DNA from: Polaromonas sp. SP1
GTDB lineage: Bacteria > Pseudomonadota > Gammaproteobacteria > Burkholderiales > Burkholderiaceae_C
Assembly (NCBI RefSeq): GCF_003711205.1
Contig: NZ_CP031013.1
Location: 3,824,501 to 3,888,500 of the forward strand
Reading direction: 5' to 3'
Length of the DNA: 64,000 nt
Part shown: piece after piece, positions 284 to 51,316 of the stretch
How the letters are laid out: the number at the start of each line of letters is the position of its first letter
How positions within the stretch are numbered: the stretch's first letter is position 1
Position numbers and translations under genes: made by a program
The notes under the pieces: generated by a model
Seen by the model: only the letters and a program-made list of their open reading frames with translations
What the model was told of the DNA's origin: nothing
The model's database searches: none

Positions 284-1601
284 TTTTCACCTCGCCGTTT
301 TCTTCCAGCGACCACGACTGGATGGCGTTGTTGTGATAGATGCTGCGCGATGCGCGGACCTTGCGCAGTTCGCTGTAAGTCGGCTGTACCTGGCCGGTCT
401 CATCGACGGCGCGGCTCTGGAAGATTGCCGGTTTGCCGTCCCAGACGAAGTCGGCGTTAAAACGCGTGAGGCACTTGGAGAGCACCGGCCCTTCGAGCCG
501 CGCCTGCGTCCAGTTTTTTCCGCCATCCACCGACACGTCGACCCGGCGGATCTTGCCGCGCCCGCTCCAGGCCAGGCCGGTGAGGTTGTGAAAGCCCTTT
601 TGCAGCAACACCTGGCCGCCGCTGGGCGAAGTCACCACGCTTTTGACTTCCTGGACGCTGGTGTACTGGCGATGCAGGCCGTCCGGCATCAGGTCGACGT
701 AATGGATGGTTTCGTCCTTGGCGCCGTAGGGCATGTCGCCCACTTCGATGCGCCGCAGGTATTTGACCCAACTCACACCCTGCACGCCCGGCACGACGAG
801 GCGCAGCGGGTAGCCGTTTTCGGGGCGCAGCATTTCGCCGTTCTGGCCGTAGGCCACCAGCACTTCGCCGCTCATCACCAGGCTCATGGGGATGGTGCGG
901 GTCATGCCCGAGCCGTCCGCGCCTTCGGCCAGGATGAATTTGGCACGCTTGAAATCAGTGCCGCACAACTCAAGCAATGCGCGCAAAGGCACACCGGTGA
1001 ATTCGCTGCAGCTGAGCATGCCGTGGGTGTACTGCACCGTCGGCACGGCGGCGTTGCCCCATTCCATGCCGGTGTTGGCGCCGCATTCGATGAAATGCAT
1101 GCGGCTCACATTGGGCAGGCGCATGATTTCGTCCATGCTGAACACCATGGGTCGCTTGAGCATCATGTCGTCCGAGCCGTTGAGCATCAGGCGGTGTTTG
1201 GAGGGGTCGATGTCCCACCATCCCTGGTGATGGCGCTCAAAGTGCAGGCCGCTGGGCGTGATGATCCCGAACAGGCCCTGCAGCGGGCAAAAGCTCACGC
1301 TCGCCTGGCCGATGCGCGTCAGGCCCGGGCTCTCGCGGCGCTGCAGGTTTTTTTCCCATTCGCTGGGCAGGCCGTACCCGCGGGCCGCCACAGGCTGGCC
1401 CAGGCCTTTGCTGTGGGGCGGAAGGTTCAGGATATTGGCGTCGCCCTCGGCGGCAGCGCCTTGCGCGCTGGCACGGCTGGCCGCAGCGGCGGCCGCCGCA
1501 AACGCCCCGGCCAGAAAGCCGCGGCGCCCTGCCCGCACTTCATGAATCTGGTCCCGCGAGAGGAAGTGCTCAGGGGCACGCTGGATGAATCGGTTCAACA
1601 T
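270..1601 (-). CDS. soxC: SoxC, molybdenum-containing sulfane dehydrogenase subunit
   Basis: Sulfite-oxidase-family molybdoprotein of 443 residues, the catalytic partner of SoxD. A twin-arginine signal (GRRGFLAGAF near residue 25, followed by an Ala-rich core) sends it folded to the periplasm. The FIECGAN segment holds the Cys expected to ligate molybdenum in this family, and the C-terminal half is the Mo-cofactor dimerisation domain. A first ATG at 1610 has AAAGAG touching it, whereas the ATG at 1601 has that element 9 nt upstream, so I chose 1601. It lies between soxR (19 bp upstream) and soxD (overlapping), so the three are one leftward operon. Length and order match the SoxCD pairs of thiosulfate oxidisers. 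Confidence 0.9.
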   Translation of the reverse strand: MLNRFIQRAPEHFLSRDQIHEVRAGRRGFLAGAFAAAAAAASRASAQGAAAEGDANILNLPPHSKGLGQPVAARGYGLPSEWEKNLQRRESPGLTRIGQASVSFCPLQGLFGIITPSGLHFERHHQGWWDIDPSKHRLMLNGSDDMMLKRPMVFSMDEIMRLPNVSRMHFIECGANTGMEWGNAAVPTVQYTHGMLSCSEFTGVPLRALLELCGTDFKRAKFILAEGADGSGMTRTIPMSLVMSGEVLVAYGQNGEMLRPENGYPLRLVVPGVQGVSWVKYLRRIEVGDMPYGAKDETIHYVDLMPDGLHRQYTSVQEVKSVVTSPSGGQVLLQKGFHNLTGLAWSGRGKIRRVDVSVDGGKNWTQARLEGPVLSKCLTRFNADFVWDGKPAIFQSRAVDETGQVQPTYSELRKVRASRSIYHNNAIQSWSLEENGEVKNVQV

Positions 1602-1620
1602 GGATGGCATCTCTTTTTAT

Positions 1621-2004
1621 TCAGGCGTCAGCAGCTCCGGACCGGGGCGACAGGCTTTCGCCCGGCGGCAGCGCGCCCGGCTCGTCCAGCTCGATGGCGA
1701 TCTGCGTGCAGACGCTGCGGCACAGCGCCACGGCTTTTTCGCTTTGCACCCGGTAGATCACCTGCGTGCCCTCTTTGCGCTTGGCCAGCACGCCGGTGCG
1801 GTAGAGCACAGCCAGGTGCTGTGAAAGATTGGGCTGCGTGGTGTCGATTTCAGCCAACAACTCATTGACGGACTTTTCACGCTCGCACAGGGCGCTGAGC
1901 ACCCGCAAACGCATGGGCGTTGCCAGCACGGCGAAAAGTTCCGCCGCCAGCTCAAAAACCCGGCCTCTTTCAACCTGCGCACTGCCCTGAATCATCTGGT
2001 CCAT
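1621..2004 (-). CDS. soxR: SoxR, ArsR-family repressor of sulfur oxidation genes
   Basis: 127-residue ArsR/SmtB-type winged-helix protein. The recognition region TTQPNLSQHLAVLYRTGVL is typical of the family, and the wing is KRKEGTQVIYRV. Cys residues at about position 40 (ALCEREKS) and in the pair CRSVC near the end fit a thiol- or persulfide-sensing repressor like BigR/SqrR/SoxR, although which of them sense is not shown by sequence alone. It is the first gene of the leftward soxR-soxC-soxD operon. An AT-rich imperfect palindrome lies 15 bp upstream of its start, so it probably represses its own operon until sulfur compounds appear. The name is based on the family and on the soxCD neighbours. 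Confidence 0.8.
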   Translation of the reverse strand: MDQMIQGSAQVERGRVFELAAELFAVLATPMRLRVLSALCEREKSVNELLAEIDTTQPNLSQHLAVLYRTGVLAKRKEGTQVIYRVQSEKAVALCRSVCTQIAIELDEPGALPPGESLSPRSGAADA

Positions 2005-2018
2005 AGCAACTTTTTCTT

Positions 2019-2040
2019 AATATAAGCAATGACTAATATT
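2019..2040. promoter_or_regulatory. Probable SoxR operator (AT-rich imperfect palindrome)
   Basis: The 22 bp from AATATAAGC to ACTAATATT pair at 8 of 11 positions about their centre. The site ends 15 bp before the soxR start codon, in an otherwise GC-rich stretch. ArsR-type sulfur regulators of the BigR group bind AT-rich imperfect inverted repeats in their own promoters. Autoregulation is inferred. Confidence 0.5.
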
Positions 2041-2088
2041 ATTCATCAGTACCCATAAGGAAAGACACCGTAGATACCCTCAGGCACC

Positions 2089-2156
2089 GTGAAATTGGTA
2101 AATATCACCAGGCACCGGCCAAACCGGCAAAAGGTGTTGCCAACACGCAATTTCAC
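2089..2156 (+). other. Structured leader candidate upstream of the Slam-like operon
   Basis: A perfect 9-bp inverted repeat, GTGAAATTG (2089-2097) and CAATTTCAC (2148-2156), encloses a second set of pairable segments: CACC (2113-2116) with GGTG (2133-2136), and an inner GCC/GGC. The whole can fold as a long hairpin about 100 bp before the start at 2260. No T-run follows, so it is not a simple terminator. It could be an operator pair or a 5' UTR structure. I recognise no known riboswitch class. Confidence 0.3.
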
Positions 2157-2259
2157 CCCCCGCCGAAAGGTGTAATAAAGCGTTGCACGCCCCTTGAGCG
2201 TGATATAAAACTTTTGTTGCTTACGGGTTGTTACCTAAGACACTTAAAAAATAATACTT

Positions 2260-3588
2260 ATGTTTTCAAAAAACACACTTTTTTCGGGTGGCTTACTGGT
2301 CGCGGCCCTGATCACCCATCCCGCACATGCAGAGGTCGACGCCCTGGTCACCAATGCCCGCACATTGCTCGACCAAAGCCAGGCGCAAAAAGCCTTCGAC
2401 CTGCTGGAGCCGCAAGAGCCCGCACGCGCAGGGGATCCCGACTTCGACACCGTGCTGGGTATCGCCGCCAATGAGACCGGACAGTACACCCGGGCCGTCT
2501 TCGCACTGGAGCGCGTGCTGGCCGTGCAACCCAGCAACTCGCGGGCACGCGCCGAACTCGGCCGCGCCCTCTTCTCCGTCGGCGACACCAAGGCCTCCCG
2601 CCAGGTGCTGATGGAAACCAAGCGGGACAACATCCCCGCCGAGGCCGCCGCGACCATCGACCAGTTCCTGCAGGCCATTGACCGCACCGAGGAAGCGGCC
2701 CGCTCCTCGGTCAAGCCCTTCCTCGAAGCCGGTATCGGCTACGACACCAACATCAACAGCGGCCCGGGCAACCCCAATGTGGCCGTTCCGGCTTTCGGCG
2801 GGCTGATCTTCACGCTGAACCAGGCTGGCGTTGAAACCAAGGACACGTTTTTCACTCTGGGCGGCGGTGTATCCGCCCGCTATGTCGTGGATCCACGCTG
2901 GTCGCTGATCGGCAACGTCTACGGCAATGCCCGCGCCAACGCGAAGCACGGCGACTTCGACACCGGGCAGGTCGACGTCAACGCCGGCGCCAGCTACCGG
3001 TATGAAAAGCACGAATTCAGCGGCGTCGTCCAGGCCGGCACCTACTCCGTCAACGGATCACGCGCACGCGACCAGCAAGGCCTTGTGGGCGAATGGACCT
3101 ACCGCATCGACGGCTTTCGCCAATGGAGCACCTACATCCAGTGGGGCGACCTGAAATACCCGGGGCAGTCGATTCGCGACGCCACACGCACGGTGCTCGG
3201 CACGTCATACGCGCACGCTTTCCGCGAAAGCAACATCATCGTGTTTGGCGGCGGTTATGTCGGGACCGAAAAGGAAAACGCCGCCGGTGTGCCGCACCTG
3301 GGCCACGACCTCGTCGGCTTTCGCGCCGGTGCGCAGAAAACGCTGTCAGATGCCCTGGCCCTGTTTGGCAGCGTGAGCTATGAAGACCGCAAATACGGCG
3401 GCGCCGACCCGCTCTTCCTTGTCACCCGCCATGACAAGCAATGGAATTTGAACCTGGGCCTGAACTGGGTGCCCGCCAAACTGTGGCGCGTCACGCCCCA
3501 GCTGACGCTGACCAACGTGAAATCCAATGTTGCCATTTCCGACTACAACCGCAGCCTGTTCTCCGTGACGGTGCGCCGCGATTTCTGA
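2260..3588 (+). CDS. Slam-like (DUF560) outer-membrane exporter with N-terminal TPR and C-terminal beta-barrel
   Basis: 442 residues. A Sec signal peptide (cleavage near AHA-EV) is followed by about 130 residues of TPR-like helices (for example GQYTRAVFALERVLAVQPSNSRARAELGRALF). The last 290 residues are alternating amphipathic strands that begin with GIGYDTNINSG and end VTVRRDF, with the terminal Phe typical of outer-membrane barrels. This TPR plus barrel plan and the DTNIN entry are characteristic of Slam/type XI secretion outer-membrane proteins, which move proteins carrying a TbpB-like barrel domain to the surface or medium. It is slightly shorter than neisserial Slam. It is followed after 42 bp by two candidate substrates. 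A generic TPR-porin is the alternative. Family membership is read from motifs and not from an alignment. Confidence 0.65.
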   Translation: MFSKNTLFSGGLLVAALITHPAHAEVDALVTNARTLLDQSQAQKAFDLLEPQEPARAGDPDFDTVLGIAANETGQYTRAVFALERVLAVQPSNSRARAELGRALFSVGDTKASRQVLMETKRDNIPAEAAATIDQFLQAIDRTEEAARSSVKPFLEAGIGYDTNINSGPGNPNVAVPAFGGLIFTLNQAGVETKDTFFTLGGGVSARYVVDPRWSLIGNVYGNARANAKHGDFDTGQVDVNAGASYRYEKHEFSGVVQAGTYSVNGSRARDQQGLVGEWTYRIDGFRQWSTYIQWGDLKYPGQSIRDATRTVLGTSYAHAFRESNIIVFGGGYVGTEKENAAGVPHLGHDLVGFRAGAQKTLSDALALFGSVSYEDRKYGGADPLFLVTRHDKQWNLNLGLNWVPAKLWRVTPQLTLTNVKSNVAISDYNRSLFSVTVRRDF

Positions 3589-3630
3589 CCTTCGTCACGA
3601 CAGAGAACGCAACGGCAGGAAACCAACGCC

Positions 3631-5046
3631 ATGAAAACAAGAAGAAGCCTTCCGCTTAAACGCACCGCCCTCTCGGTCGTGGTGGCGGCGGCCTTCCCCC
3701 TGTTTCCGGCGCACACCCTGGCGGCCGGGTCGGCGGGCGTGGCTCAATTCATCGCCGGCGACGTCAATGTGCTGCGCGCAAACGGCAAAACCGAGCCGCT
3801 CGCCAAAGGCAAAGCGCTCGAGAGCGGCGAATCCATCCTGACGGGCAACGCCGGCCGCGCGCAGGTGCGCTTCACCGACGGCGGCCTGGTGTCCCTTCAG
3901 CCCAACACCGAATTCAAGATCGCGAACTATGTCGACGAAGCAGACCCCAAACAGGACCGCTTCCTGGTCGACCTGCTGCGCGGCAGCATGCGGGCCATCA
4001 CCGGCCTGATCGGCAAGCGCAACCGCGAGAACTACAAGGTCACCACAACCACCGCCACCATCGGCATACGCGGCTCCGGCTTCAGCGTGGGCTACAACCC
4101 CGACGGCTCGCTGGGCATCACCACCGAACTGGACGGCATCGAAGTCTGCAATGCCGGCGGCTGCGTGGGGCTGACGGCAGGCGAGTCAGTGCGCGTGGTA
4201 AGCCCTACCGAGGCGCCCGTACGTACCAATGTGCGGGCAAACGTGCCAACGCCGGCGCCAGCCCAGGAGGTGGTCACGGTCGGCAACCAGACCACTGCCG
4301 ACGGCAAGGCCAGCATCGTTTCCACGCCGTCCGCCCCTGCCAGGCAAGTGTTCACCGACCTGTCGGTGGGCGTGGTGTTTACCGATACCTCAGCCAACCC
4401 GGTGGCGGAAAGCTACCACCCCGAGGGCGGCACCGCCGTGCTGACCAGCTTCCTCAGCGGGCAACCCATCGACTTCGACAGCGTCGACAGCAGCAACGTC
4501 CGGACCCAGTTCCGCAGCACGCCCGGCCTCACCAACATGGAAAAGGGCACGCTGGGCGTACCCACCGACGCCGATTTCGTCGGCTGGGGCAGCTGGGTAA
4601 CGGGGCAAAAGATCGTGGGCGGTTCGGCCGCGTCCATCGAGTCCGTTCACTTTGTGATGGGCCGGCCGACGCCTCTGGCGCAAATGCCCACCAACATGCA
4701 GGGCACTTACGCGCTTGCCGGCGGCACGGCGTTTTCCAACACGCTCGGCGCAGGTCAATTGGTCGGCGGCTCCATCACAGCCAATTTCAGCGGCGCCGGC
4801 CAGGGCAATGGTTATCTCGACCTCACCACACGCTTTGGCGGCACCAACTACTCAGTGACGGGCATCTCCCTGGATATCAACAACTCCAGGATCACGAATA
4901 CTTCGGGGTCCAATATCACCGGCTTCTTCACCGGCAGCAACGCCAGCCGGGCAGCGCTGGTCTACAGCACGCCGATCGAAAGCGCAGGCCAGGTTTCCGG
5001 CGCAGCCGTCTTCCAGCAGACCGGCTTGAGCGCCATCCCCCAATAA
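3631..5046 (+). CDS. Secreted FecR-domain protein with TbpB-like C-terminal barrel, candidate Slam substrate 1
   Basis: 471 residues. A Sec signal peptide without a lipobox (cut near LAA-GSAG) implies a soluble rather than lipidated product. Residues about 35-190 form a FecR-type domain (AQFIAGDVNV, RAQVRFTDGGLVSLQPNTEF, TTTATIGIRGSGF, and EVCNAGGCVGLTAGESVRV with two Cys). A Pro/Ala linker follows, then a conserved GWGSWVTG / HFVMGRPTP block. The C-terminal strands end ITGFFTGSNASRAALVYS and VSGAAVFQQ, closely resembling the GxFxGPNAxxxGGxF signature of TbpB-type barrels carried by Slam-dependent proteins. The start has AGGA 10 nt upstream. A second copy of the gene follows. Transport role is inferred from the upstream exporter; ligand is unknown. 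Confidence 0.6.
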   Translation: MKTRRSLPLKRTALSVVVAAAFPLFPAHTLAAGSAGVAQFIAGDVNVLRANGKTEPLAKGKALESGESILTGNAGRAQVRFTDGGLVSLQPNTEFKIANYVDEADPKQDRFLVDLLRGSMRAITGLIGKRNRENYKVTTTTATIGIRGSGFSVGYNPDGSLGITTELDGIEVCNAGGCVGLTAGESVRVVSPTEAPVRTNVRANVPTPAPAQEVVTVGNQTTADGKASIVSTPSAPARQVFTDLSVGVVFTDTSANPVAESYHPEGGTAVLTSFLSGQPIDFDSVDSSNVRTQFRSTPGLTNMEKGTLGVPTDADFVGWGSWVTGQKIVGGSAASIESVHFVMGRPTPLAQMPTNMQGTYALAGGTAFSNTLGAGQLVGGSITANFSGAGQGNGYLDLTTRFGGTNYSVTGISLDINNSRITNTSGSNITGFFTGSNASRAALVYSTPIESAGQVSGAAVFQQTGLSAIPQ

Positions 5047-5095
5047 GCCAGCCCGCGCGCACAGCATTACCCAAAAAAATCTCCGGAGAATCAGC

Positions 5096-6439
5096 ATGAC
5101 CCCCTCGTCCTTCAAGCTTCAGCACACTGTCCTGGCCGTTGCGCTGGCTGCCATTTACCCGCTGCAGGCGTCTGTTGCGGCTTCTGCCGGTGTGGCCCAG
5201 TTCATTGCAGGTGATGTGAATGTCCGCCGTGCCGATGGCGGCTCCACACCGCTGGTCAAAGGCAAAGACATCGAAAGCGGCCAGGCCATCGTGACCGGCG
5301 CCAGCGGCCGGGCGCAGGTGCGCTTCACCGACGGCGGCCTGGTGTCCCTGCAGCCCAATACCGAATTCAAGGTGGCCAACTATGTCGACAAGGCCGACCC
5401 GAAAGAAGACCGCTTCCTGGTCGACCTGCTGCGCGGCAGCATGCGGGCCGTCACCGGCCTCATCGGCAAGCGCAACCGCGAGAACTACAAGGTCACCACC
5501 ACCACCGCCACGATCGGCATACGCGGCTCGGGCTTTAATGCCGGCTACAACCCCGACGGCTCGCTGGGTGTAACCACCGAGTTCGACGGCATCGAAGTCT
5601 GCAACGCCGGCGGCTGCGTGGGCCTGACGGCCGGTGAATCGGTGCGCGTGGTCAACAACACGGACGCACCCGTGCGCACGAATGTGCGAGCCATAGTGCC
5701 CACGCCGGGGCCCATACAGGATCCTGTGATTGTGGGTAACCAGACCACGCCCAAGGGAGCACCAAAAATCCTCGTGGAAGACTCAAAAGTTGCTGGACTC
5801 CCCACCGGTGAAAACGGCACCTTCACCGACATGACCGCTGTCGTTCATTACCATCTGCCGCCTGTCAACACTGACCCGAATGGCAGCTTTGCCGGCCCGA
5901 TTGCTTCAACGTCAGTGGTGCTGAGCGGCAGCAAGGCCACGTCCATCGAAGCTTCTGGCTTCACCTTCACGCCGACCGTCAACACAGCGGCGGGCTCTTT
6001 CGGTTCAGTCGCTACCAATGACTTCATCGGCTGGGGCAACTGGGCCACCGGCACCAAGACAGGCCCCACCAACCTCGCCGAGATTCACTACCTCGTGGGC
6101 CAGGCTACGCCGGTCATACCGACCATCGGGGGAGCCGCCTCCTACACTCTCGTCGGCGGCTCGGCCCCCACGTCGTACACCGGTGCCAGCGGAGTCCTGA
6201 ACAGCGCAACGCTTTCGGTCAACTTTGGTGGTGGCTTTCTGGACGTCAACATTAACACCTCATTTGGCAATGTGGTGGAGAACTTCCTGTATTTCTCCAG
6301 CTCCACCTTCAGCAGCGGCAGCGGCAGCATCAAAGGCATGTTCACAGGCCCCAACGCCAATTACGCGGGCCTTATTTACAACGGCGGCCTGTCGCCGGCA
6401 GGCACGTTCACCGGCACCGCGATCTTCAAGGCGCCTTAA
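5096..6439 (+). CDS. Secreted FecR-domain protein with TbpB-like C-terminal barrel, candidate Slam substrate 2
   Basis: 447 residues, paralogue of the preceding gene, with the SD sequence CCGGAGAA before its ATG. It has a Sec signal peptide (PLQASVAA) and no lipobox. The FecR domain (about residues 28-185) is almost the same as in its neighbour even at DNA level, including the pair of Cys in EVCNAGGCVG. The C-terminal half has diverged but keeps GWGNWATG, IHYLVGQATP and the final GMFTGPNANYAGLIY...GTFTGTAIFKAP, a very good match to the TbpB-barrel signature. The plan is therefore a fixed N-terminal domain with a variable middle and a conserved export barrel. It is the last gene of the operon and overlaps the convergent glycosyltransferase gene by 4 bp. 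Confidence 0.6.
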   Translation: MTPSSFKLQHTVLAVALAAIYPLQASVAASAGVAQFIAGDVNVRRADGGSTPLVKGKDIESGQAIVTGASGRAQVRFTDGGLVSLQPNTEFKVANYVDKADPKEDRFLVDLLRGSMRAVTGLIGKRNRENYKVTTTTATIGIRGSGFNAGYNPDGSLGVTTEFDGIEVCNAGGCVGLTAGESVRVVNNTDAPVRTNVRAIVPTPGPIQDPVIVGNQTTPKGAPKILVEDSKVAGLPTGENGTFTDMTAVVHYHLPPVNTDPNGSFAGPIASTSVVLSGSKATSIEASGFTFTPTVNTAAGSFGSVATNDFIGWGNWATGTKTGPTNLAEIHYLVGQATPVIPTIGGAASYTLVGGSAPTSYTGASGVLNSATLSVNFGGGFLDVNINTSFGNVVENFLYFSSSTFSSGSGSIKGMFTGPNANYAGLIYNGGLSPAGTFTGTAIFKAP

Positions 6440-7491
6440 CGCCCGCACCAGGCAGCCGCAGGCCCAAGGTAATAAACCATCTCCCGCTGCGTGGCCTCGG
6501 GGCCATGCACAGCGATCGCCTGCAGCCTTCCTGCCTCGCCCATGCTCCGGCACAACGCGGGGTCCGCCGCCAGTTGCATCACCGCGTCGTAAGCTTCTTC
6601 CTGCGACTGTATGAGCCGGCCCGACACCCCGTCTTCCATCACTTCGGCATAACCGCCGCGCACGTGCGCCACGACGGGCAGGCCCGCGGCCATGGCTTCC
6701 ACCACCACGCGGCCATACGCTTCCGTTGACGCGCCGGTGCGATAGAAAAATGCATCCAGCGAACGGTAGAAATCGGGCGTGCTTTCAGCGCCGGCGGGCA
6801 GCAGTTCAACCCCTTCGACACCCGCCAGCGCCTGCGCCATGCAGGTGCCGCCCATGATGCGCACCCGCAGCCCCCGGCTGGCCAGCATGCGGTACAGCGC
6901 CGGGTCTTCGGGGTGGTGCTTGTCGGGTGCGTCGCGGCTGACGCGGCCCACGGTGAAGGGGCGATCAGCCGCCCCCGGCGTGGAAGCCTGTGCGAAGCGC
7001 TCGCCGGCTACCGCCAGGAAAGGCTGCACGTCCATCAGGCTGCGTGAAATGCGCCCAGGCAAACCAACGCTCAACTGCAGCAGCTTTGACACGAACACCA
7101 GCTCCGGGTCTAGACCCGTGCTGTCCCGCAGGGACTCCATCGCTGCAAACAGCTGCGCGTGGTTGGCCAGGTTGTAAAACAGGATGATCTGCTCAAACTT
7201 CGCGTACTTCAGCCAGAGGCCGGGCCGCATGTGCACGCCGGCAATCAGCAAGGCGCCGCCCCTGGGGAACTGCTGGGCAAAAGGCTGGATCACGGCAATG
7301 TCCTGCCCCGCGTAGCTGGGGTGCAGCGGCACATCCGACCACAGCTTCACAGGCCGCCGCCCTTGCAGCAGGCGCCGGATGTCCAGCAGCTCACGCTCTG
7401 CACCGGTATAGGCCTGGCTGAAACGCCCCAGCAAATGCAGCGTAGAGGCTGGTGATGCAGGCGAAGGCGAGGCTGGAGCAGAGGCATTCAT
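6436..7491 (-). CDS. Glycosyltransferase, GT4-like (family 1)
   Basis: About 351 residues with a GT-B fold. The acceptor-side N-terminal half contains LLGRFSQAYTGAEREL. The C-terminal half holds the nucleotide-sugar signature STEAYGRVVVEAMAAGLPVVAHVRGGYAEVMEDGVSGRL, where E of VVVEAM is the usual donor-sugar ligand. I chose the ATG at 7491 because upstream codons would run over the start of the divergent neighbour. It lacks membrane segments, so it is cytoplasmic or peripheral. It faces a TPR-OGT-type transferase across a 50 bp gap and ends against the FecR-protein operon, which suggests a role in modifying secreted proteins or surface glycans. Donor and acceptor are unknown. Confidence 0.75.
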   Translation of the reverse strand: MNASAPASPSPASPASTLHLLGRFSQAYTGAERELLDIRRLLQGRRPVKLWSDVPLHPSYAGQDIAVIQPFAQQFPRGGALLIAGVHMRPGLWLKYAKFEQIILFYNLANHAQLFAAMESLRDSTGLDPELVFVSKLLQLSVGLPGRISRSLMDVQPFLAVAGERFAQASTPGAADRPFTVGRVSRDAPDKHHPEDPALYRMLASRGLRVRIMGGTCMAQALAGVEGVELLPAGAESTPDFYRSLDAFFYRTGASTEAYGRVVVEAMAAGLPVVAHVRGGYAEVMEDGVSGRLIQSQEEAYDAVMQLAADPALCRSMGEAGRLQAIAVHGPEATQREMVYYLGPAAAWCGR

Positions 7492-7541
7492 TCTTCGGCA
7501 ATTATCCCTGCGATGCGAGGCTCTGCCACATAATCCGGAGG

Positions 7542-9716
7542 ATGCAAAACACGCTCCCGGGCGCACCCGACGCTGCCGGCCTGCAGGCCCCTGAAGACAG
7601 CCAAAGCTGGATGCTGCGCGGCTCCCGGCTTCATGCCGCCGGCCAGCTCGAGCAGGCGCTGATCGCCTTTGAAAAAGCCCTCGCCCTGCAGCCCACCGAC
7701 GTCAATGCCGCCTCGGCCTGCGCCACGCTGCTGTCTGCGCTCTCCCGGCCGATGGCGGCGTACAAGGCACTGCTTTCCGTCGAGGCCCTGCTGCTGGAAA
7801 CCGCCGACGGTGCAGCCAACCTGGCCATCGCGGCCGAAAGCTGCGGCGACCTCGCCCGCGCCAGCATGGCCTACCAGCGCGCATTGGTGCTGGACCCCCA
7901 CCATGGGCGCGCCCTCAACAACGTCGGGCTGATGGCCGCCGCGCAGTCGCAGTGGGAGGCCGCGCTCGAATGCGCCCGCCAATGCCTGGCGCAAGACCCC
8001 GCCCACGCGCCCTACCACGTCAACCTGAGCGACTACCTCTGCGGCGCCCGGCGCTATGCCGAGGCGCTAGCCGTGCTTGAAGCGGCCGCGCTTCGCTTCC
8101 CGGACGACCTGGACATCCGCATCCGCACCGCCGCCGTGCTGGCTTTCAACGGTGACTTTGAAAAGTCCCGCGAAGCAAGACTGCGCTTTGACGCCGCCAC
8201 GCTGGATTACTTCAAGGACTTCCTCTCCCGCTCAATCGCGCCCGCCTACCTCGACCACAGGTTGCGTGGCCCCCAAGGTCAACTCCCCGATGCGTTTCAG
8301 CTCTACACCGGCCAGGCCTTCGAAGCCATGACCGTCTGCGACTGGCGGGACAACGAACGCGCCGCGGCCACGCTGCGGCAAATGCTGGACGACGTCTTGC
8401 GCACCGGCATAGGCCGCGACTGGCGCGACGCGCAGTTCTACGGCCTCATGCTCGGCATGAACGAAGACGAGCTGGCACAGATACGCCGCATCTCGGTGGC
8501 CAGGATCAGCAAAGACCTGCAGTCGCCCCTGCCGCCGTTTGTGCAGCGGCAAAACCCGGTGGGCAAGCGCGACGGGCGCATCCAGATCGGCATCACGGTG
8601 CAAAGCCTGCGCGACGAGCGCCATGCGCACGCCCTCAAACGCCAGCTTGCGCTGCACGACAGCAGCCGCTTTGCCATCCACCTCTATTCACCGACACGGC
8701 ACCCCGAACCCGCGCACAGCGAAATGCTGCAAGCGCACGTCGCCAGCGTGACGGAAATCGCGCACATGTCCGACGTGGAAGCCGCCGCGCGCATGCGGCT
8801 GGACCACCTCGACGTGTTTGTCGACATGACGTTTGACACCGCTTGGTGCCGGCCCGAAATACCCGAGCTGCGCGTGGCGCCGGTGCAAATACGCCAGCTC
8901 ACGTGGCACCGCCACAACCCGCCGCGGCCTTGCGACTACAACATGTCCGACACCTTTGTGCACCCCGACGGGCTGGACCTCACGCCCTACGGCGCCGTCG
9001 TGCGCCTGCCGCACACCTGCTGGCTGGCCACGCATGACGAAGCACCCGAGGCCGGCTGGGACAACCGCGAGAAAGCCGGCCTGCCCGCCGGCGCGCTGGT
9101 GCTCTGCTCGGTGGTGCCGTCGGTCATGCTCGATCCGCAAAGCTTCGCCGCCTGGATGAAAATCCTGCGCTCGCTGCCCGACGCGGTGCTCTGGCTGCCC
9201 GCCTACAGCCTGCCCATTGCCGCCAACCTGGTGCGCGAGGCCAACGCCGCCGGCGTGCATGAAAACCGCCTGCTGTTTGCCAACCGCCTCTCGCGCGTGC
9301 AGACGCTCGCCTGCATGAAGCACGCCGACCTCTTCCTCGACACCCTGCGTTTCAGCGCCAACCAGGGCCTGGAAGACGCCCTGCGCATCGGCGTGCCGGC
9401 CATCACCTGCGCGGGCGACAGCATGGCCTCGCGCCTGGGCGGCAGCATGCTGCGGGCCGCGGGACTAAACCAGTGCGTGATGCAAAGCCCGGACGCCTAT
9501 GTCGCAGAGGCCGTGCGCCTGGGGCGCGACCCGCAAGCGCTGCAGCAGTTAAGGCAGCAGCTGCTGGCCGAAAAAGCCGGCGCGCCGCTCTTTGACCTGG
9601 CCGCGCGCGTTCGGGAATGGGAGGCCGCCTGGGCCCATATGGCTGAGCGCACGCGCGCGGGGCTGGCGCCTGCGGCCTTTGATGTGCCCGCCTCTGCCAG
9701 CACGGCGAAGCTGTAG
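7542..9716 (+). CDS. TPR-containing O-GlcNAc-transferase-type glycosyltransferase (SPINDLY/GT41-like)
   Basis: About 724 residues. Residues 20-230 are TPR-like repeats (QLEQALIAFEKALALQPTDVNAA; ARASMAYQRALVLDPHHGRALNNVG; RYAEALAVLEAAALRFPDD). The rest is a GT-B catalytic region with the GT41-type end: HENRLLFANRLSRVQTLACMKHADLFLDTLRFSANQGLEDALRIGVPAITCAGDSMASRLGGSML. Related enzymes add GlcNAc or glucose to Ser/Thr or Asn of cytoplasmic proteins, including adhesins before export (HMW1C). The ATG at 7542 directly follows CGGAGG, a very short SD spacing. An upstream in-frame ATG at 7452 is possible but overlaps the divergent gene. A protein-glycosylation role for the neighbouring secreted proteins is inferred. 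Confidence 0.75.
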   Translation: MQNTLPGAPDAAGLQAPEDSQSWMLRGSRLHAAGQLEQALIAFEKALALQPTDVNAASACATLLSALSRPMAAYKALLSVEALLLETADGAANLAIAAESCGDLARASMAYQRALVLDPHHGRALNNVGLMAAAQSQWEAALECARQCLAQDPAHAPYHVNLSDYLCGARRYAEALAVLEAAALRFPDDLDIRIRTAAVLAFNGDFEKSREARLRFDAATLDYFKDFLSRSIAPAYLDHRLRGPQGQLPDAFQLYTGQAFEAMTVCDWRDNERAAATLRQMLDDVLRTGIGRDWRDAQFYGLMLGMNEDELAQIRRISVARISKDLQSPLPPFVQRQNPVGKRDGRIQIGITVQSLRDERHAHALKRQLALHDSSRFAIHLYSPTRHPEPAHSEMLQAHVASVTEIAHMSDVEAAARMRLDHLDVFVDMTFDTAWCRPEIPELRVAPVQIRQLTWHRHNPPRPCDYNMSDTFVHPDGLDLTPYGAVVRLPHTCWLATHDEAPEAGWDNREKAGLPAGALVLCSVVPSVMLDPQSFAAWMKILRSLPDAVLWLPAYSLPIAANLVREANAAGVHENRLLFANRLSRVQTLACMKHADLFLDTLRFSANQGLEDALRIGVPAITCAGDSMASRLGGSMLRAAGLNQCVMQSPDAYVAEAVRLGRDPQALQQLRQQLLAEKAGAPLFDLAARVREWEAAWAHMAERTRAGLAPAAFDVPASASTAKL

Positions 9717-10904: not shown

Positions 10905-13064
10905 TCACGCCTTGGCCAGGTTGTCATTCAGCGGCAGCGTGCGCACGCGCTTGCCGGTGGCGGCAAACACCGCATTGGCCACCGCCGGCGCCACCAGCGC
11001 CGTGGCCGGCTCGCCAATGCCGCCGGGCTTCTCGGTGCTGGGCACCAGCGTGATGTCCATCACCGGCGACTCATGCATGCGCAGCACCGGGTAGTCGCCA
11101 AAATTGGTCTGCTGCACCCGGCCCTTGTCCAGCGTGATCTGGTTGTTCAGCGCCGCCGAGAGGCCAAACACAATGCTCGACTGGATCTGCGCCTGCACCG
11201 TGTCGGGGTTGACCATGCGGCCCAGGTCGGCCACGGTGGTGATCTTGTGCACGGTGATCTGGTTGTCCTTCACCGAGACCTCGGCCACCTGCGCCATGTA
11301 GGTGTCGTAGCCCTCCATCAGCGCGATGCCGCGGCTGCGGCCCGCCGGCGGCGGTGTGCCCCAGCCGGCCTTGTCGGCCGCCATCTTCAGCACATTGGCA
11401 AAGCGCGGTTGTTTCTCGAGCAGCGACATCCGGTAGGCATACGGGTCCTTGCCCGCCGCCAGCGCCATCTCGTCGACAAAACTCTCATTGGCAAACGCGT
11501 TGAGCGCATGGCTGACCGAGCGCCAGTAGCCGGCACGCAGCCCGGTGTCATGGATCACCAGGTCGTACTGCGTGTTCGGGATGTCGTAGGGCATCACGCC
11601 GGCTTCGGCCATGAACGGGTCCAGCGTGTCCTTGGGCAGGCCAAAGGCGCGCTGCGTGATGGACTGCGAGGTCACCTTGAAATTCAGCGCCACCGGTTTG
11701 CCGTCGGCGCCCAGCCCGGCTGAGAGCTGGTTGACGGCCATGGGCCGGTAGAAGTCGTGCGTGGTGTCGTCCTCGCGGCTCCAGATCAGCTTGACGGGCT
11801 TGCCCACGGCCTTGGAGATTTGCGCCGCCTGCACGATGAAGTCGAGCTCCAGCCGCCGGCCAAAGCCGCCGCCCAGGAAGGTCGTCTTCAGCGTGATGTC
11901 TTCAGGCTTGAGGCCCAGCGCCGCCGCCACACTGCCCTCGGCACCCTGCTGGAACTGCGTGGGGCCGATCAGCAGGATCTTGCCGTTCTTGAAGTCGGCC
12001 GTGAAGTTCATCGGCTCCAGCGTGGCGTGCGCCAACAGCGGCGAGACATACTCGGCTTTCACCGTCCTGGCCGCGCCCTTCATCGCGCCCGCCGCATCGC
12101 CCTTGGCCGGCACGATCGGGATCAGCTTGCCGCTGTCCGCCGCTTTGCGGATGCCGTCCAGCATGTTGGCGTTGTTGATGGCCGCGACCGGGCCTTCGTC
12201 CCATTGCACCGTCAGCGCCTGGCGCGCCTTGTAGGCATGCCAGTAGCTGTCGGCCACCACGGCCACGCCGTCCGGGATCTGCACCACGTCGATCACGCCG
12301 GGCATGGCTTTGGCCTTCGCTGCATCAAAGCTCGTGACCTTCCCGCCGATGACCGGGCATTGCTCCAGGCTGGCGTAGACCATGCCGGGCAGCTTCACGT
12401 CGATACCGAACTCGGCCGTGCCGTTGACCTTCATCGGCGTGTCCAGCCGCTTGGTGGGCTTGCCGATCACGGTGAAGTCTTTCGGGTCTTTCAACGCCAC
12501 GTTTTCCGGCACCGGCAACTTCGAAGCCGCCTCGGCCAGCGAGCCGTAAGTCGCCTTCTTGCCGTTGGGCCCGATCACCATGCCGTTTTCGGCCTTCAGC
12601 GTCGAGGCATCGACGTTCCACTTAGCAGCCGCCGCCGACACGAGCATGGTGCGCACCTGCGCGCCCGCAATGCGCAGCTTCTCCCAGCCGTCCCGCACCG
12701 AGGTCGAGCCACCGGTGATCTGCGCGCCCAGCAGTGCATTGGTATAGACCTTGCCCGGAGGCGCAATCGCCACCTTGATCTTGCGGATATCGACATTGAG
12801 CTCTTCAGCAATCAGCATGGGCATCGACGTGTACACGCCCTGCCCCATCTCGGAACGCGCCGACAGCAGCGTGATGGTGTTGTCGTCGGCAATGTGCACC
12901 CAGGCATTGGGTGTGTAGAGCGTTCCGGCCGCCTGCGCGGCCGACGGAACACCCAGCGATACACCCAGCATCAAGCCGCCGCCGGCCACCGTCAGCGCGG
13001 ACGATGTCTTGAGGAAAGTGCGGCGGTTTGGAGAAACCAGTGAAGTCAATGAGGTGATAGTCAT
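10905..13064 (-). CDS. iorB: Molybdenum hydroxylase large subunit (isoquinoline 1-oxidoreductase beta type), copy 1
   Basis: 719 residues of the xanthine-dehydrogenase molybdopterin-binding family. A twin-arginine signal (PNRRTFLKTSSALTVAGG) precedes a mature protein starting near AQAAGTL, so the enzyme works in the periplasm. Family marks are SEMGQGVYTSMPMLIAEEL, the cofactor loop [15 protein letters not shown], and the C-terminal GGIGEPATALVAPA, whose Glu is the catalytic base in this superfamily. The small Fe-S subunit is encoded 11 bp upstream and XdhC 54 bp downstream. Relatives hydroxylate N-heterocycles or oxidise aldehydes and pass electrons to cytochrome c. The substrate cannot be read from sequence, so the symbol denotes the family only. 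Confidence 0.85.
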   Translation of the reverse strand: MTITSLTSLVSPNRRTFLKTSSALTVAGGGLMLGVSLGVPSAAQAAGTLYTPNAWVHIADDNTITLLSARSEMGQGVYTSMPMLIAEELNVDIRKIKVAIAPPGKVYTNALLGAQITGGSTSVRDGWEKLRIAGAQVRTMLVSAAAAKWNVDASTLKAENGMVIGPNGKKATYGSLAEAASKLPVPENVALKDPKDFTVIGKPTKRLDTPMKVNGTAEFGIDVKLPGMVYASLEQCPVIGGKVTSFDAAKAKAMPGVIDVVQIPDGVAVVADSYWHAYKARQALTVQWDEGPVAAINNANMLDGIRKAADSGKLIPIVPAKGDAAGAMKGAARTVKAEYVSPLLAHATLEPMNFTADFKNGKILLIGPTQFQQGAEGSVAAALGLKPEDITLKTTFLGGGFGRRLELDFIVQAAQISKAVGKPVKLIWSREDDTTHDFYRPMAVNQLSAGLGADGKPVALNFKVTSQSITQRAFGLPKDTLDPFMAEAGVMPYDIPNTQYDLVIHDTGLRAGYWRSVSHALNAFANESFVDEMALAAGKDPYAYRMSLLEKQPRFANVLKMAADKAGWGTPPPAGRSRGIALMEGYDTYMAQVAEVSVKDNQITVHKITTVADLGRMVNPDTVQAQIQSSIVFGLSAALNNQITLDKGRVQQTNFGDYPVLRMHESPVMDITLVPSTEKPGGIGEPATALVAPAVANAVFAATGKRVRTLPLNDNLAKA

Positions 13065-44686: not shown

Positions 44687-47600
44687 TCAGTCTTTCTCCT
44701 TTTCCTTCCCGTCCTTCCCGTCCTTCCCGCTTTCCCCTTCATGGCCTGGCGACATGTCCAGCTCGACCGCCTGGCCGTTGTCGATGGCCTCGCCGGCGCC
44801 GGACGGTTTGCTGCGGCCCACGGCTTGCTCTCCCCCGCTTGCCAAAACGCCGGCCTGGGCCAGCTGAAGCACAGGCTCATCGGCGCCGTTGCCCTCGGCC
44901 TGGCTGCTGCCGGTGGGGATCACGCGGTTGTTCTCCGCGTTGGACGACAGCTGCTGGTTGCCCTGGGGCCTGCCGTTCACGTTGACCAGGCCGCTGCCCG
45001 AATTGGTGACCTGCCCGAAGTTGCCGCTGACGGTGCCGCTGGGGGCGTTCATCGTGACCTGGGACGACGAGCCGGACAGATGGGCATCGCTGACGGCGGC
45101 CACTTCCACCACGGGCGCGACGACGTTGGCGACGACAGAATCGCCGGCCAGCGAAGCGGAGCCCGAGGCCACCACATTCACATTCACATCGCCCTGTGCC
45201 TGCACCGTCACGTTGTTCCCGCTGATGCTGCCGGTGATGTCGCCTGTGCTGCTGGTGATCTGCACATTGCCCTGGCTGGTGGTGGTGCCCGTCACGTCGC
45301 CGACGGCGGCCACTGCCACCGTGCTGGCCGTCACGTTGGCCGAGACGTCGCCGCCGCTGGTGACCTGCACGGCGCCCAGACTGATGGTGGAGCCGCTGAC
45401 GTCGCCGCCGGCGTTCAGCGTGTTGGTGGCGCTGGCATCCTGCCCGCGCAGGGTGTGGTCGCTCAGCGCGACATTGCCCAGCGCGTCAATCCCGTAGCCC
45501 TTGACCCACAGCGTGCTGTCCAGGCTGTAGCCGTTGGACACCACCTCCAGCCGGCCGAGCGCGTTGGCCTCGGTGCCGCCCGACACCATGTGCACATTGC
45601 CGCGGTTGGCGCCTGAGCCGGCCAGCAGGCTCAGCGCGCGGGCCGTGCTGCCGGCATTCTGGATGTCGCCGTTGAGCGTGATGTCGGCGCCCTGGGTGGC
45701 GAGTGTGGTGTCGCCCAGCAGGCTGACGGGCGCATTGAACACGATGCCGCCGGCGCCGTCGGCTGTCACCGTGCCGCTGACGCCGGAGCCTGCCGCGCCG
45801 CTTGTGAGTGAAAGGCTGTGCACGGTGGCGCCGTTAAAGAACAGGTTGAACGGGTTGCTCACCACCACGTTCTCGGCATAGGTGCCCGCACCCACGTTGA
45901 TGCCGGCGCCGTTGGCCGCGTTGCCCAGCGCCGTGCCGATGGACATCGCCTGGCTGCCGCCGCCCAGCAGGTTGCCGGTGCCGACGTGGAAGTTCTGCGT
46001 GGCCTGCGCGCCGTTCCAGCCCTGCACATAGCTGGAGGCCGAGCTGCCCAGGTTGACGGCGAAGTCGAAGGCGTTTTGCTGCGAGGCCTGCAGCCAGGTG
46101 TACTGGTTGTTGCTATTGGCCGTGCTGGCGTTGCGCACGGCAAAGTCAAAGCCGGCGATGTTGAGCGTGCCGAAGTCGCGGCTGGCCGACTCGTCCTGCA
46201 GGTAGACCGGGTTGCGCTCGGTAAAGCTGTTGTTGGCCGCCACCGTGATGTTGTTCATCTGCTGGTTGTAGGCGCGGTTGGCCTGGTAGAGCGCCAGGCC
46301 GCCCCAAGCGTTGTTGCGCGTGGTCGAATTGGTGATCGTCACATTGGCGCTGTCGGTCAGCTGGATGCCGGCGCCCTGCGTGCTGCCGCTGTTGTTGCCC
46401 ACCGGCGCGCCGTCGGCCGTGACGTGGTCGATGACCGCGCCGTCCACGCCGTTCAGGTCGAGCTCGGCCCGGCCCGCGCCGCGGCTGGTGACGTTGCTGA
46501 TTGAAAAGTTGTGCAGCCGCGCCGACGCGCCGCCCGAAGGCGCCACCTTGATGCCGTAGGACGCGGCCACATTGGCACTCGGGCCGTACAGCGTGAAGTC
46601 CCGCAGCGACACGTTGTCCGCCGTGACCTGGATGCCGTAGCCGTTCACGCCGCTCGCATCGATCACGGTGGACCCCTGGCCAGCACCGGCCAGCGTCATG
46701 CTGCGGTCCACCGTGACGGTGCGGGCCTGTACATGGGTGCCGCTGCCCACGTTCACCGTGCCGCCCGCCACGACGGCGTCGACACCGCGCTGCAGGCTGC
46801 CGCTGTTTTGCGTGACATAGACATTGCCGTCCGTCCAGGTCACCAGGCCGCGGCCGGTGGCGTCCAGCGCGTGGGTCACGCGGTCTTCAATGGCAAAACC
46901 GTCGGCCGCGCCGACAAAGACGGCGCCGCGGGCGTCCACCTTCACGGCGTCCACCGAGATGTCCTGCCCGTTGTTTTTGAACTGGGTGCCGCCGCTGATG
47001 GTGACCGTGGGCTGGCCGCCGCTGCCGTTGCGCAGGGTTTCCACACGCAGGCCGGTGCGGGCGGAGTCCTCGATGCTGCCGCCCGAAATATTGACGCTTT
47101 GCAGGCTGGCCGGCGCCGCGGTGTAGTCCGTGCTGTCGCCGGCGATGCCGCGCGTCTTGATCACCACCGCCGCAGCCGTCGGGCTATTGGAGCTGTAGCC
47201 CGAGTTTTTGACCACCACGTTGTCGAAGTTGATCGAATTGAAGGCGTCGTACTTCAGGTTGATGTCGATGCCCGCGCCGTACTGCTGGTGCTGCGACGAA
47301 CTGGCCGGCGCGCCGTAGTTGCCGGCGTTGCTGACGGTGACGTTCCTGAGCGTCAGGTCGTTGGCGGTCTCCAGGTAAAAGCCCTTGAAGGTCGGGCCGT
47401 CGATGGTGACGTTCTCAAACAGGGCATTGGCAAAAGAGCCCGTGGCGACCGGCTGGCCGCCCACCATCTGGTAGCCGTTGTAGGTCTGCACGCCGATCTG
47501 CCCGCCGGTGATGCTGCTGTTGAGCATGCGGAAGTTGTCGGCGCGGGTCGCCGTGCCGTTGCGCATGCCGAAGGTGTTGTTGTTGAAGGCCACGCGGTTG

Positions 47601-49606: not shown

Positions 49607-51316
49607 TCAGAACCGCACGAGCAGCGAGCCCATCAGGCGCGGGTCTTTGCCCTGCCCCTGGCCCTGGTAGCTCGCGATGGATTTGGTCAGCGGCCACGCC
49701 GCCTCAATCGCGGCCACCACATTTCTTTCGAGGAAAAGCCGCACACCCAGGCCGGCGGAGGCCAGGCTCTGGCTGGCAGGCGTGCCGGGTGTGACGCTCC
49801 CCACCTTCCAGACCTTGCCGATGTCGTAAAAGCCGAACACCTGAAAAGACCTGACGCCCGGCATGCCGGAGGCGCCGACATAACGCGGCTCGACGCGAAA
49901 CGCCAGCGCGCGTTCACCCACCATTTCGGCCGGCTCATAGGCCCGCCCAAACTTGCGCCCGCCCAGGGCGTATTGCTCCGACGAGAGCAGCGGCGTGTTG
50001 GCCCACTGCCCGCCGACGCCCACACTGAAAGAGACATTCGGGCTCAGGAACTGCGAACGCTCGTAGTCAAACACCAGCTTGTTGAACACGCCCTTGGCGC
50101 CGGCCCGGCTCTTGAGCAGGTCGGACTCCTGCGTGCCGCCCAGCCCCTGGGTGAAGTCGACATCGAGCGCGTTCTGCCCGTCCAGCCGGTCCAGCACCCG
50201 CCAGCTGATGCCCAGGCGCAATGCACGGATGCGGTCTTCAATCACCCGCGTGCCCAGCACATTGGTATGCACATCCGAATGGTCGTACACGGCGCGGGCG
50301 ATCACGCTTTCATTGCGCGTTCTCAGCAAGGGATAAACCGCCGCCACCGACACCGTGTCGGCATTGCCACGCACATCAAACGGCGCGAGCACATCACCCG
50401 GCTGCGTGCGCGCCCTGGACACCGCCGCGGCAAGCTTGAGCCCCTCGGTCGTCACGACCTGGCTGTACGACAGCTGGGCATAGGACATCTCGGAGTTGCC
50501 GGTGCTCACGCCGACAAACCGCCACTGGTCGTTGACGCCGAGCAGCTGGTTGCCCGTCACGGCCAGGGTCGCCTGGCCCGGCCCCAGGTATTTGGAGCCG
50601 TAGTTGTCGATCGCGGCAAAACCCTCCACCCGCTTGAGGCTGGCCACCAGCGTGAGGTCGGCCGCGCCTGGCGCCTTTGACGGCGCCAGGATGCTGCGCA
50701 GTTCAACGCCGGGAAGGTCGTTGGCCAGCAGCAGGTAGTGCTCGAGCACGGCGCTCCTGATGGGCCGCGAAGCCGTGATGCGCTCACCGATCAGCGCCAG
50801 CCTTTGTGCAATGCGGGGGTTCATGCCTTCTGCTGTCTGCACGTTAACCCGGTCGATGTAGCCCTCGATCACGCGCAGCGTGAGCGTGCCGCCAGACAGC
50901 GACTGCGGCGGCACCACCACCAGCGACAGGATGTAGCCCGCATTGCGGTACATCGCCGTGAGCGACGCCGCGAGCTCCAGGATGTCGTTGCCGGTGATTT
51001 CGCGCCCGGTGTAGGTGTCGGCGCGCGCCTGCAGCACGTTGCCGGGCAGTACGGTGGCGCTTTCTATCTCGATACGCTGCAGCGTGACGCGGATGGCTCG
51101 AAGCGAGTCGGGCATGGACTCGATGGGCTCCGTGCGCAGTTGCGCCGGCGGCGGCGCCGGCGTTGCCTCGGGCTGGAAATCAAACCGTTCACGAAGCCGG
51201 CCCGGGTCGATGGTCGGCGGTGGCTGTTGTGCCAGCGAGACGGCCGGAGCAAGCACCAGCACGCCAAGGGCATAGTGAAGAACAGGGTGTATGCCATCAC
51301 CATCGGTACGCTTCAT
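49607..51316 (-). CDS. TpsB-type outer-membrane transporter (ShlB/FhaC family)
   Basis: 569 residues from the ATG at 51316 (AAGGA upstream). A signal peptide ends near SLAQQ. A Pro-rich linker leads to two POTRA domains (QRIEIESATVLPGNVLQARADTYTGREITGNDILELAASLTAMYRNAGYILSLVVVPPQSLSGGTLTLRVIEGYIDRVNVQ). The 16-strand barrel carries the VTTEG region and the conserved FERSQ-like YERSQFLS, ending LLVRF with the final Phe. It exports the TpsA exoprotein through its pore. Gene order tpsB-tpsA with a 63 bp gap is usual. Slightly above average length. Confidence 0.9.
   Translation of the reverse strand: MKRTDGDGIHPVLHYALGVLVLAPAVSLAQQPPPTIDPGRLRERFDFQPEATPAPPPAQLRTEPIESMPDSLRAIRVTLQRIEIESATVLPGNVLQARADTYTGREITGNDILELAASLTAMYRNAGYILSLVVVPPQSLSGGTLTLRVIEGYIDRVNVQTAEGMNPRIAQRLALIGERITASRPIRSAVLEHYLLLANDLPGVELRSILAPSKAPGAADLTLVASLKRVEGFAAIDNYGSKYLGPGQATLAVTGNQLLGVNDQWRFVGVSTGNSEMSYAQLSYSQVVTTEGLKLAAAVSRARTQPGDVLAPFDVRGNADTVSVAAVYPLLRTRNESVIARAVYDHSDVHTNVLGTRVIEDRIRALRLGISWRVLDRLDGQNALDVDFTQGLGGTQESDLLKSRAGAKGVFNKLVFDYERSQFLSPNVSFSVGVGGQWANTPLLSSEQYALGGRKFGRAYEPAEMVGERALAFRVEPRYVGASGMPGVRSFQVFGFYDIGKVWKVGSVTPGTPASQSLASAGLGVRLFLERNVVAAIEAAWPLTKSIASYQGQGQGKDPRLMGSLLVRF

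Follow-up and report, generated by a model that had tools for sequence, protein, structure and literature searches.

A probable type XI (Slam) secretion module with FecR-headed, unlipidated cargo candidates in Polaromonas sp. SP1

The characterised cargo of the type XI secretion system (T11SS), for which Slam is the outer-membrane protein, is lipid-anchored or soluble and derives from an animal-associated cluster, and nine other T11SS clusters, mostly water- or soil-associated, are without characterised members (PMC8406197). Barrel cargo is rare in a survey of the marine cluster 3, many hemophilin-like cargoes are soluble and the known cargoes bear variable N-terminal effectors (PMC12282271). 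In the model published for Slam, recognition is of a C-terminal cargo motif, and flipping of the N-terminal lipid is the final event (PMC9090332). We have analysed a 64,000-nucleotide stretch of Polaromonas sp. SP1, the window (C1:3824501-3888500 of a 4.5 Mb genome on one contig), in which three consecutive plus-strand genes at 2260-3588, 3631-5046 and 5096-6439, the boundaries initially annotated, encode a Slam-family protein (P0001) and two FecR-headed proteins (P0002 and P0003, hereafter cargo 1 and cargo 2). We consider it quite probable that the locus is a type XI (Slam) secretion module with FecR-headed cargoes, and the overall reading of the initial annotation is supported.

FecR-headed, unlipidated cargo of the Slam/T11SS clade appears to be undescribed, as far as the literature found extends. 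Full-text literature searches, with most subscription journals outside their scope, returned no paper combining FecR with the terms Slam, DUF560, SlipAM or T11SS, and FecR does not occur in the accessible main texts, supplements excluded, of PMC12282271, PMC8406197 and PMC5449769. The combination, of which the initial annotation knew no description, is a rule across a clade, as detailed below.

Architecture of the predicted exporter and cargo

P0001 (442 aa; 2260-3588, plus strand) belongs to the Slam/T11SS outer-membrane protein family. Residues 214-442 match the Pfam family SlipAM (PF04575, DUF560) at 53.6 bits against a cut-off of 22, this being the top Pfam family, and tetratricopeptide repeats (TPRs) are detected upstream by TPR_19 (31.2 bits, cut-off 25); the Slam-specific TPR model PF24575, at 18.1 bits, remains below its cut-off of 35.2. 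In a structural model built with 63 aligned relatives (predicted local distance difference test, pLDDT, 91.8), seven helices and 14 long strands are predicted in addition to the signal sequence, 14 being the number of strands in the Slam outer-membrane barrel. The Slam-like TPR and barrel protein initially annotated is thus confirmed, and it is the product of the only SlipAM gene in the genome; movement of the cargo to the surface is what such a family member would be expected to perform. P0001 could instead be a TPR-barrel polysaccharide channel of the BcsC/PgaA/PelB kind, with the FecR proteins as accessory cell-wall or sugar-binding proteins. BcsC is the first and PelBC the third Foldseek match of the P0001 model, porin folds such as OmpG match as well, and glycosyltransferases adjoin the module. 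Foldseek, however, could not name Slam, as the best 50 of its 1,538 matches include no entry of that name, and the above-threshold SlipAM match, the 14 strands rather than the 16 of the BcsC barrel and the hemophilin-type barrel carried by the neighbouring proteins lead us to regard a polysaccharide channel as very improbable and to prefer the Slam assignment.

Cargo 1 (471 aa; 3631-5046, plus strand) and cargo 2 (447 aa; 5096-6439, plus strand) are two-domain proteins of like architecture, the order predicted for cargo 1 being a signal sequence, a FecR-type head, a short linker, handle strands and a C-terminal eight-stranded barrel domain. The Sec-type signal sequences of both contain, by eye, no cysteine and no lipobox, as initially annotated, and a loose lipobox pattern is present in one of 46 cargoes (L141) so that 45 are without it. 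The FecR family PF04773 matches cargo 1 at 48.7 bits and cargo 2 at 47.0 bits (cut-off 24), bearing out the N-terminal FecR-type domain annotated in each, and matches 46 of 46 cargoes at E 0.01. The head occupies approximately residues 34-206 of cargo 1 (3730-4248, plus strand), where it is of FecR/retention-module type, and residues 29-202 of cargo 2 (5180-5701, plus strand), delimited there by PF04773 and by comparison with cargo 1.

The C-terminal domain of the cargoes is, on the evidence of a structural model and profile matching, a hemophilin/TbpB-type Slam-cargo barrel. In the model of cargo 1, built with 45 relatives including cargo 2 (pLDDT 83.3), the strands of the head extend to residue 199 and are followed by a low-confidence linker, handle strands at residues 245-329 and eight strands, the sixth of which is broken, at residues 332-468, as assigned by DSSP (handle and barrel, residues 245-468, at 4363-5034, plus strand). 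TbpB is the first Foldseek match of this model to the PDB, and fHbp, hemophilin and the C-terminal domain of NHBA also match. Template-modelling (TM) scores are low, approximately 0.2, for the multi-domain matches and reach 0.61 of target for the single-domain NHBA. The barrel-side part of cargo 2 (residues 213-447; 5732-6436, plus strand) was found by querying with the cargo 1 barrel and is a row of an alignment of 21 barrels, the profile of which matched only two of 177,635 PDB sequences at E <=10, hemophilin (8e-6) and lactoferrin-binding protein B, LbpB (0.55), both of the known Slam cargo type. The C-terminal GFFTGSNA/GMFTGPNA signature initially annotated is present and recurs in relatives of the cargoes. 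In 94 of 96 FecR-barrel open reading frames (ORFs), at most 15 residues separate the end of the barrel from the C-terminus, the position expected for a Slam targeting signal. Preceding linkers are up to 198 residues long (median 18) and proline-rich in some of these ORFs. Barrel number also varies, 57 of 65 FecR-barrel ORFs from the named loci and the window containing one barrel, five two, two three and one four, and each of 13 multi-barrel ORFs, some of them present twice under two locus names, contains a single head.

Several results weigh against this assignment. The unrelated protein BFA1 stands in the cargo 1 Foldseek list at E 2.5e-4, above fHbp and hemophilin. Curated Pfam barrel families match none of the 46 cargoes, FecR being the sole Pfam match at E 0.01, and the slam_lipo model (NF041636) matches seven of 46 at E 0.01, below its cut-off wherever the score is known; on cargo 1 it scores 25.1 bits against a cut-off of 80, and sub-threshold matches are present in five of ten relatives of another set. 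When compared with three single classical cargoes, the barrel profile gave probabilities of 2.7, 1.0 and 0.3%, none significant. The initially annotated TbpB-type barrel is supported by the eight strands modelled at good confidence, by Slam cargo structures among the top folds and by hemophilin as the top PDB match of the profile. Neither outcome that the initial annotation named as refuting its reading was obtained, P0001 scoring above the DUF560/SlipAM cut-off and the cargo 1 C-terminus being modelled with eight strands. Of 77 complete Slam-linked cargoes of close relatives, 23 have a FecR head and no barrel, indicating that the barrel is not required in every case; L130 is counted here as barrel-less, its second FecR gene running off the contig end. 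The barrel-less cargoes are mainly titled Acidovorax (17 of 23), and 19 of them (L101, L103, L105, L107, L108, L109, L111 and others, mostly Acidovorax) have in place of the barrel a tail of approximately 130-170 residues that is 36-47% proline.

Slam-FecR pairing across genomes

FecR is encoded at four places in the genome, two of which are the neighbours of its single SlipAM gene, and this arrangement together with its recurrence in relatives indicates that the pairing is not due to chance. The window's family was represented by 299 genomes, of which 27 contain SlipAM (29 places in all); a FecR gene adjoins it at 24 of the 29 places, the window included. The five places lacking FecR are the three highest-scoring, which are classical Slams (L045-L047), and the low-scoring L067 and L072. 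When the same 299 genomes were searched with the barrel only, 11 of them were found to contain it, at 15 places in total, and every place is a Slam locus apart from one at a contig end; ten of the 11 genomes are among the 27 with SlipAM, each with both genes on one contig, and the eleventh is that of the contig-end barrel.

Beyond the family, a FecR gene is the next gene after Slam, on the same strand, in 81 of 81 loci, comprising the window and 80 named loci, the best 80 of 338 found by exporter similarity. This value is conditioned by the search, as the alignment used was made of Slams that are themselves FecR-linked, whereas a class-wide sample drawn by Pfam family is not so conditioned. 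In that sample, SlipAM matches occur in 35 of 369 genomes, one of which is the window's own, and the other 34 comprise seven classical and 27 non-classical genomes; 1.5 kb was read around 29 loci, with five further genomes and further places added. A FecR head was found in none of the seven classical genomes at the listed SlipAM places, read in wider stretches. FecR lies beside a Slam-like gene in 21 of the 27 non-classical genomes, 19 of the 20 with a match above the Pfam cut-off and two of the seven below it. The six genomes without FecR count against the generality of the pairing; one holds a fragment (L181) and five (L184, L219, L220, L221 and L222) are below the cut-off. Of 20 FecR loci in the class sample, 11 have a barrel detected by the iterated barrel profile; among the others, L199 is truncated by the contig end, and a similar terminal motif is seen, by eye only, in L202, L203 and L205. 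Co-occurrence of FecR cargo with Slam, a check proposed in the initial annotation, is very strong.

A tree of 64 exporters places nine classical Slams in one clade and 50 FecR-linked exporters in another, each with a Shimodaira-Hasegawa-like approximate likelihood ratio (SH-aLRT) support of 99. L183, in which the FecR gene is upstream of Slam, is counted among the 50. L067, L069, L071, L180 and L184 fall outside both clades, the FecR-linked L180, L069 and L071 being weakly placed. Nine of the 80 named loci are represented in the tree, from which class-sample loci added later are absent, and no usable row was obtained for L046, L072 and L181. Across 5,494 ORFs of the fetched loci, the iterated barrel profile identified 96 FecR ORFs and four others, counts which, like the 94 of 96 given above, include some genomes twice, as family sample and as named locus. 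The four others resemble pieces of cargo: L062 and its copy L094 have a short barrel ORF following the cargo, L073 has a match at the contig end and L100 has, by eye, a contig-end piece that lies upstream of Slam. Pairing of Slam with FecR is near-obligate and is the rule in the whole exporter clade, not a local oddity.

Variant arrangements were also observed. Besides a barrel cargo downstream, a further FecR gene, short and barrel-less, lies just upstream of Slam in five loci (L129 4152-4943, L141 4205-4966, L143 4214-4966, L146 4055-4810 and L147 2866-3648), the titles of which are Rhodocyclaceae, Dechloromonas, Azonexus, Pseudomonadota and Betaproteobacteria. In L106 (1786-4780) and L140 (1856-4853), the first pair is preceded immediately upstream by another Slam gene, which has a FecR gene of approximately 545 aa to itself. 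Elsewhere in the genome of the window (L218, C1:1219000-1231000), genes at 1400-3280, 3274-5181 and 5301-8492, all on the minus strand, form an apparent operon in which a FecR gene lies behind genes for a 635-aa protein that by eye resembles an outer-membrane barrel and has no Pfam match, and for a 1063-aa protein without a match. This is possibly another outer-membrane/FecR pairing outside SlipAM.

Constant heads, variable barrels and possible retention of the cargo

The two cargoes of a locus are alike in the head and differ in the barrel. Heads are 78-100% and barrels 31-60% identical in eight of eight loci with two FecR-barrel genes examined, class-sample loci being excluded from this comparison, and in the window the corresponding values are 85% and 37%. 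In L100 the DNA of the two heads is 100% identical over residues 31-180 and 99% in the next bin, decreasing to 34-64% beyond it, and in L113, a complete genome, identity is 96-100% over residues 31-180. The heads of L052 are 96% identical to each other and 75-77% to those of the window, indicating that they evolve together in L052. In the window, L074, L076 and L077, heads instead track gene position across species (94-97% identity to the counterpart and 82-88% to the other copy), and homogenisation is therefore not continuous. These identities are most simply read as contact of the head with a shared, co-evolving partner, of which the exporter is the most plausible, and the barrels would be exchangeable parts; opportunistic gene conversion without function is possible as a cause of head identity.

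Structural comparison of the head gives a similar indication. Foldseek matches of the cargo 1 model include 4m0h, a putative anti-sigma factor, and 5ix9, a cell-surface anchoring domain labelled antifreeze protein in the PDB, which we take to be the ice adhesin of Marinomonas primoryensis. The latter superposes on the model with a root-mean-square deviation of 1.0 over 62 columns (TM 0.77 of target, Foldseek E 1.5e-3) and is also the top PDB match of a 46-cargo profile (E 4e-5), through profile positions 37-84, which are the head. The LapA retention model (retention_LapA, NF033682) matches 46 of 46 cargoes at E 0.01. Nevertheless, three results argue against retention of the LapA type. The retention model scores 33.8 bits against a cut-off of 50, and both window cargoes are below this cut-off; the same model matches, at 18-29 bits, seven of seven other FecR proteins without a detected barrel, five of them at Slam loci and two, L187 and L188 of the window's genome, not near any Slam gene (28.2 and 26.8 bits); and the LapG protease (PF06035) was not found in the genome. 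The likeness is thus probably general to the FecR fold, retention homology was rejected as proof of anchoring, and LapG-controlled release of the cargo was rejected for lack of a PF06035 match in the genome. Likeness to an anchoring domain makes periplasmic anchoring of the head reasonable, without proving it, and it is this likeness, combined with the near-identity of heads within a locus, which argues for a docking or anchoring role. Binding of a metal, peptidoglycan or a surface partner by the head, suggested initially, found no specific support, the evidence pointing rather to docking.

A sequence of events consistent with these observations can be proposed. The cargo would cross the inner membrane by Sec export, after which the Slam-type protein would recognise the C-terminal hemophilin/TbpB-type barrel of each cargo, and the unfolded chain would pass through the Slam barrel to the surface, where the cargo barrel would refold. 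Export itself and the order of passage are here what we infer. The FecR-type head, common to both cargoes of one exporter, would most likely dock at the exporter on the periplasmic side and hold the chain in place of a lipid anchor, with the variable barrel displayed outside. Periplasmic retention of the head is proposed tentatively, as something short of probable. By analogy with the published order, in which the C-terminal motif is recognised and the N-terminal lipid moves last (PMC9090332), a folded N-terminal head would fit as a stop.

Two other roles of the head were considered. The whole cargo, head included, may be secreted or surface-bound like the soluble hemophilins, the head acting as an outward effector that binds a ligand, a surface polymer or a cell. 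The lack of a lipobox in both window cargoes and in nearly all others, the solubility of many hemophilin-like cargoes and the variable N-terminal effectors of known cargoes (PMC12282271) are in agreement with this, as is a likeness of the head, below cut-off, to the Leptospira surface adhesin Lsa33. An outward effector would, however, be expected to vary, yet it is the head that is constant and the barrel that is variable, the reverse of the scheme in that survey (PMC12282271), and we regard outward display of the head as possible, if doubtful. Members of the FecR family relay the state of a receptor to sigma factors or kinases. The head could accordingly be a periplasmic sensor that reports export state or ligand binding of the barrel inward, for which the FecR family match and the fold match to 4m0h speak. 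However, no inner-membrane segment besides the signal sequence is apparent in the cargo by eye, and the genes beside the module encode a sulfite-oxidase-like enzyme, an ArsR-like regulator (by eye) and glycosyltransferases, no FecI-type sigma factor or receptor partner having been noticed among them, although no search aimed at these was made. A sensor function is improbable. Periplasmic docking of the head is the reading we prefer.

More speculatively, and at no great likelihood, a whole T11SS branch may anchor its cargo without lipid, through a periplasmic head at the Slam pore, a flexible, sometimes long and proline-rich linker that passes the pore and, outside, between one and four variable barrels, which may be glycosylated. 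The heads would be kept alike per exporter, in some loci by recent gene conversion, such that new barrels swap onto a fixed export and anchor cassette. With these loci, a branch of non-classical Slams gains a substrate architecture that is clear and conserved, and it becomes simple to test which region of the cargo is recognised and by what means a cargo without lipid remains attached to the cell. If a fixed head with exchangeable barrels is indeed the arrangement, it would constitute a natural surface-display cassette.

Neighbouring genes and comparison with known systems

The genes following cargo 2 encode two putative associated glycosyltransferases, a GT4-type enzyme tail to tail with cargo 2 (6436-7566, minus strand; Glycos_transf_1, 58.8 bits), relatives of which occur at many loci, and a TPR and GT41 (O-GlcNAc-transferase/SPINDLY-like) enzyme (7452-9716, plus strand; Glyco_transf_41, 120 bits), the true start of which is perhaps near 7542. 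The latter is encoded by the only GT41 gene in the genome, and O-GlcNAc transferases are its closest sequence matches in the PDB. By iterated profile GT41 is present in 32 of the 80 named loci and, among loci in which the first cargo is complete and followed by at least 2.5 kb of sequence, a limit chosen by the analyst, in 32 of 46 barrel loci vs 0 of 19 barrel-less loci (Fisher 9e-8). The barrel label changes only three times on the Slam tree, giving two independent pairs, so that shared ancestry explains much of this contrast and the statistics do not carry a partnership; GT41 genes are, moreover, frequent in the family (183 of 299 genomes). Barrels of GT41/GT4 loci show a slight enrichment of N-X-S/T sequons (179 vs 143.6 +/- 10.5 when shuffled, the rows being related). 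No enrichment is seen in other barrels (85 vs 82.5) or in Slams (100 vs 94.2), and heads show a depletion. Modification of the cargo barrel with sugar by the neighbouring GT41 enzyme is accordingly offered as a lead, and an unlikely one at present. In L069 (8008-13500) and L071 (3-4805), divergent SlipAM and short FecR genes are found beside very large proteins, that of L069 containing TPRs and GT41, GT2 and GT1-type domains and that of L071 matching the GT41 profile of the window.

Sigma-70-like sites in the region number two (one at 2228-2255) vs 1.1 expected, which is at the level of chance. The window also encodes a two-partner secretion (TPS) pair, a 1618-aa TPS-domain protein (44687-49543, minus strand) and a ShlB/FhaC-type transporter with POTRA (49607-51346, minus strand), and two molybdopterin cofactor-binding proteins of the aldehyde-oxidase large-subunit kind (10905-13064, minus strand, and 54320-56743, plus strand).

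The locus resembles the Slam/T11SS systems of TbpB, LbpB, fHbp, HpuA and hemophilin in having a TPR and barrel gene adjoining genes that encode signal-peptide cargo, the C-terminal part of which is an eight-stranded barrel. Unlike classical Slam systems, the exporter is in a separate clade, its nearest named relatives (the best 80 of 338) being from Polaromonas and other, mostly environmental, Betaproteobacteria; the cargo is unlipidated and begins with a FecR-type head, and its paralogues have the head in common and divergent barrels. Tandem arrays of two to four barrels, present in eight of 65 FecR-barrel ORFs, recall the multi-barrel T11SS cargoes of Sphingomonas and Psychrobacter, although these differ in having proline-threonine-type repeats at the N-terminus (PMC12282271). 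With the LapA/MpAFP-type RTX adhesins the cargo shares a head that matches the anchoring domain 5ix9 by both profile and fold, whereas Slam is not a type I exporter, the genome has no LapG and the retention model matches below its cut-off. In the HMW1 system an adhesin, its dedicated outer-membrane transporter and a GT41 enzyme are encoded in one locus and secretion is of the two-partner type. The locus described here similarly groups a predicted surface protein, an outer-membrane transporter and a GT41 glycosyltransferase, but its GT41 enzyme carries TPRs and is closest, among PDB sequences, to O-GlcNAc transferases, and its transporter is of the Slam family rather than of two-partner secretion.

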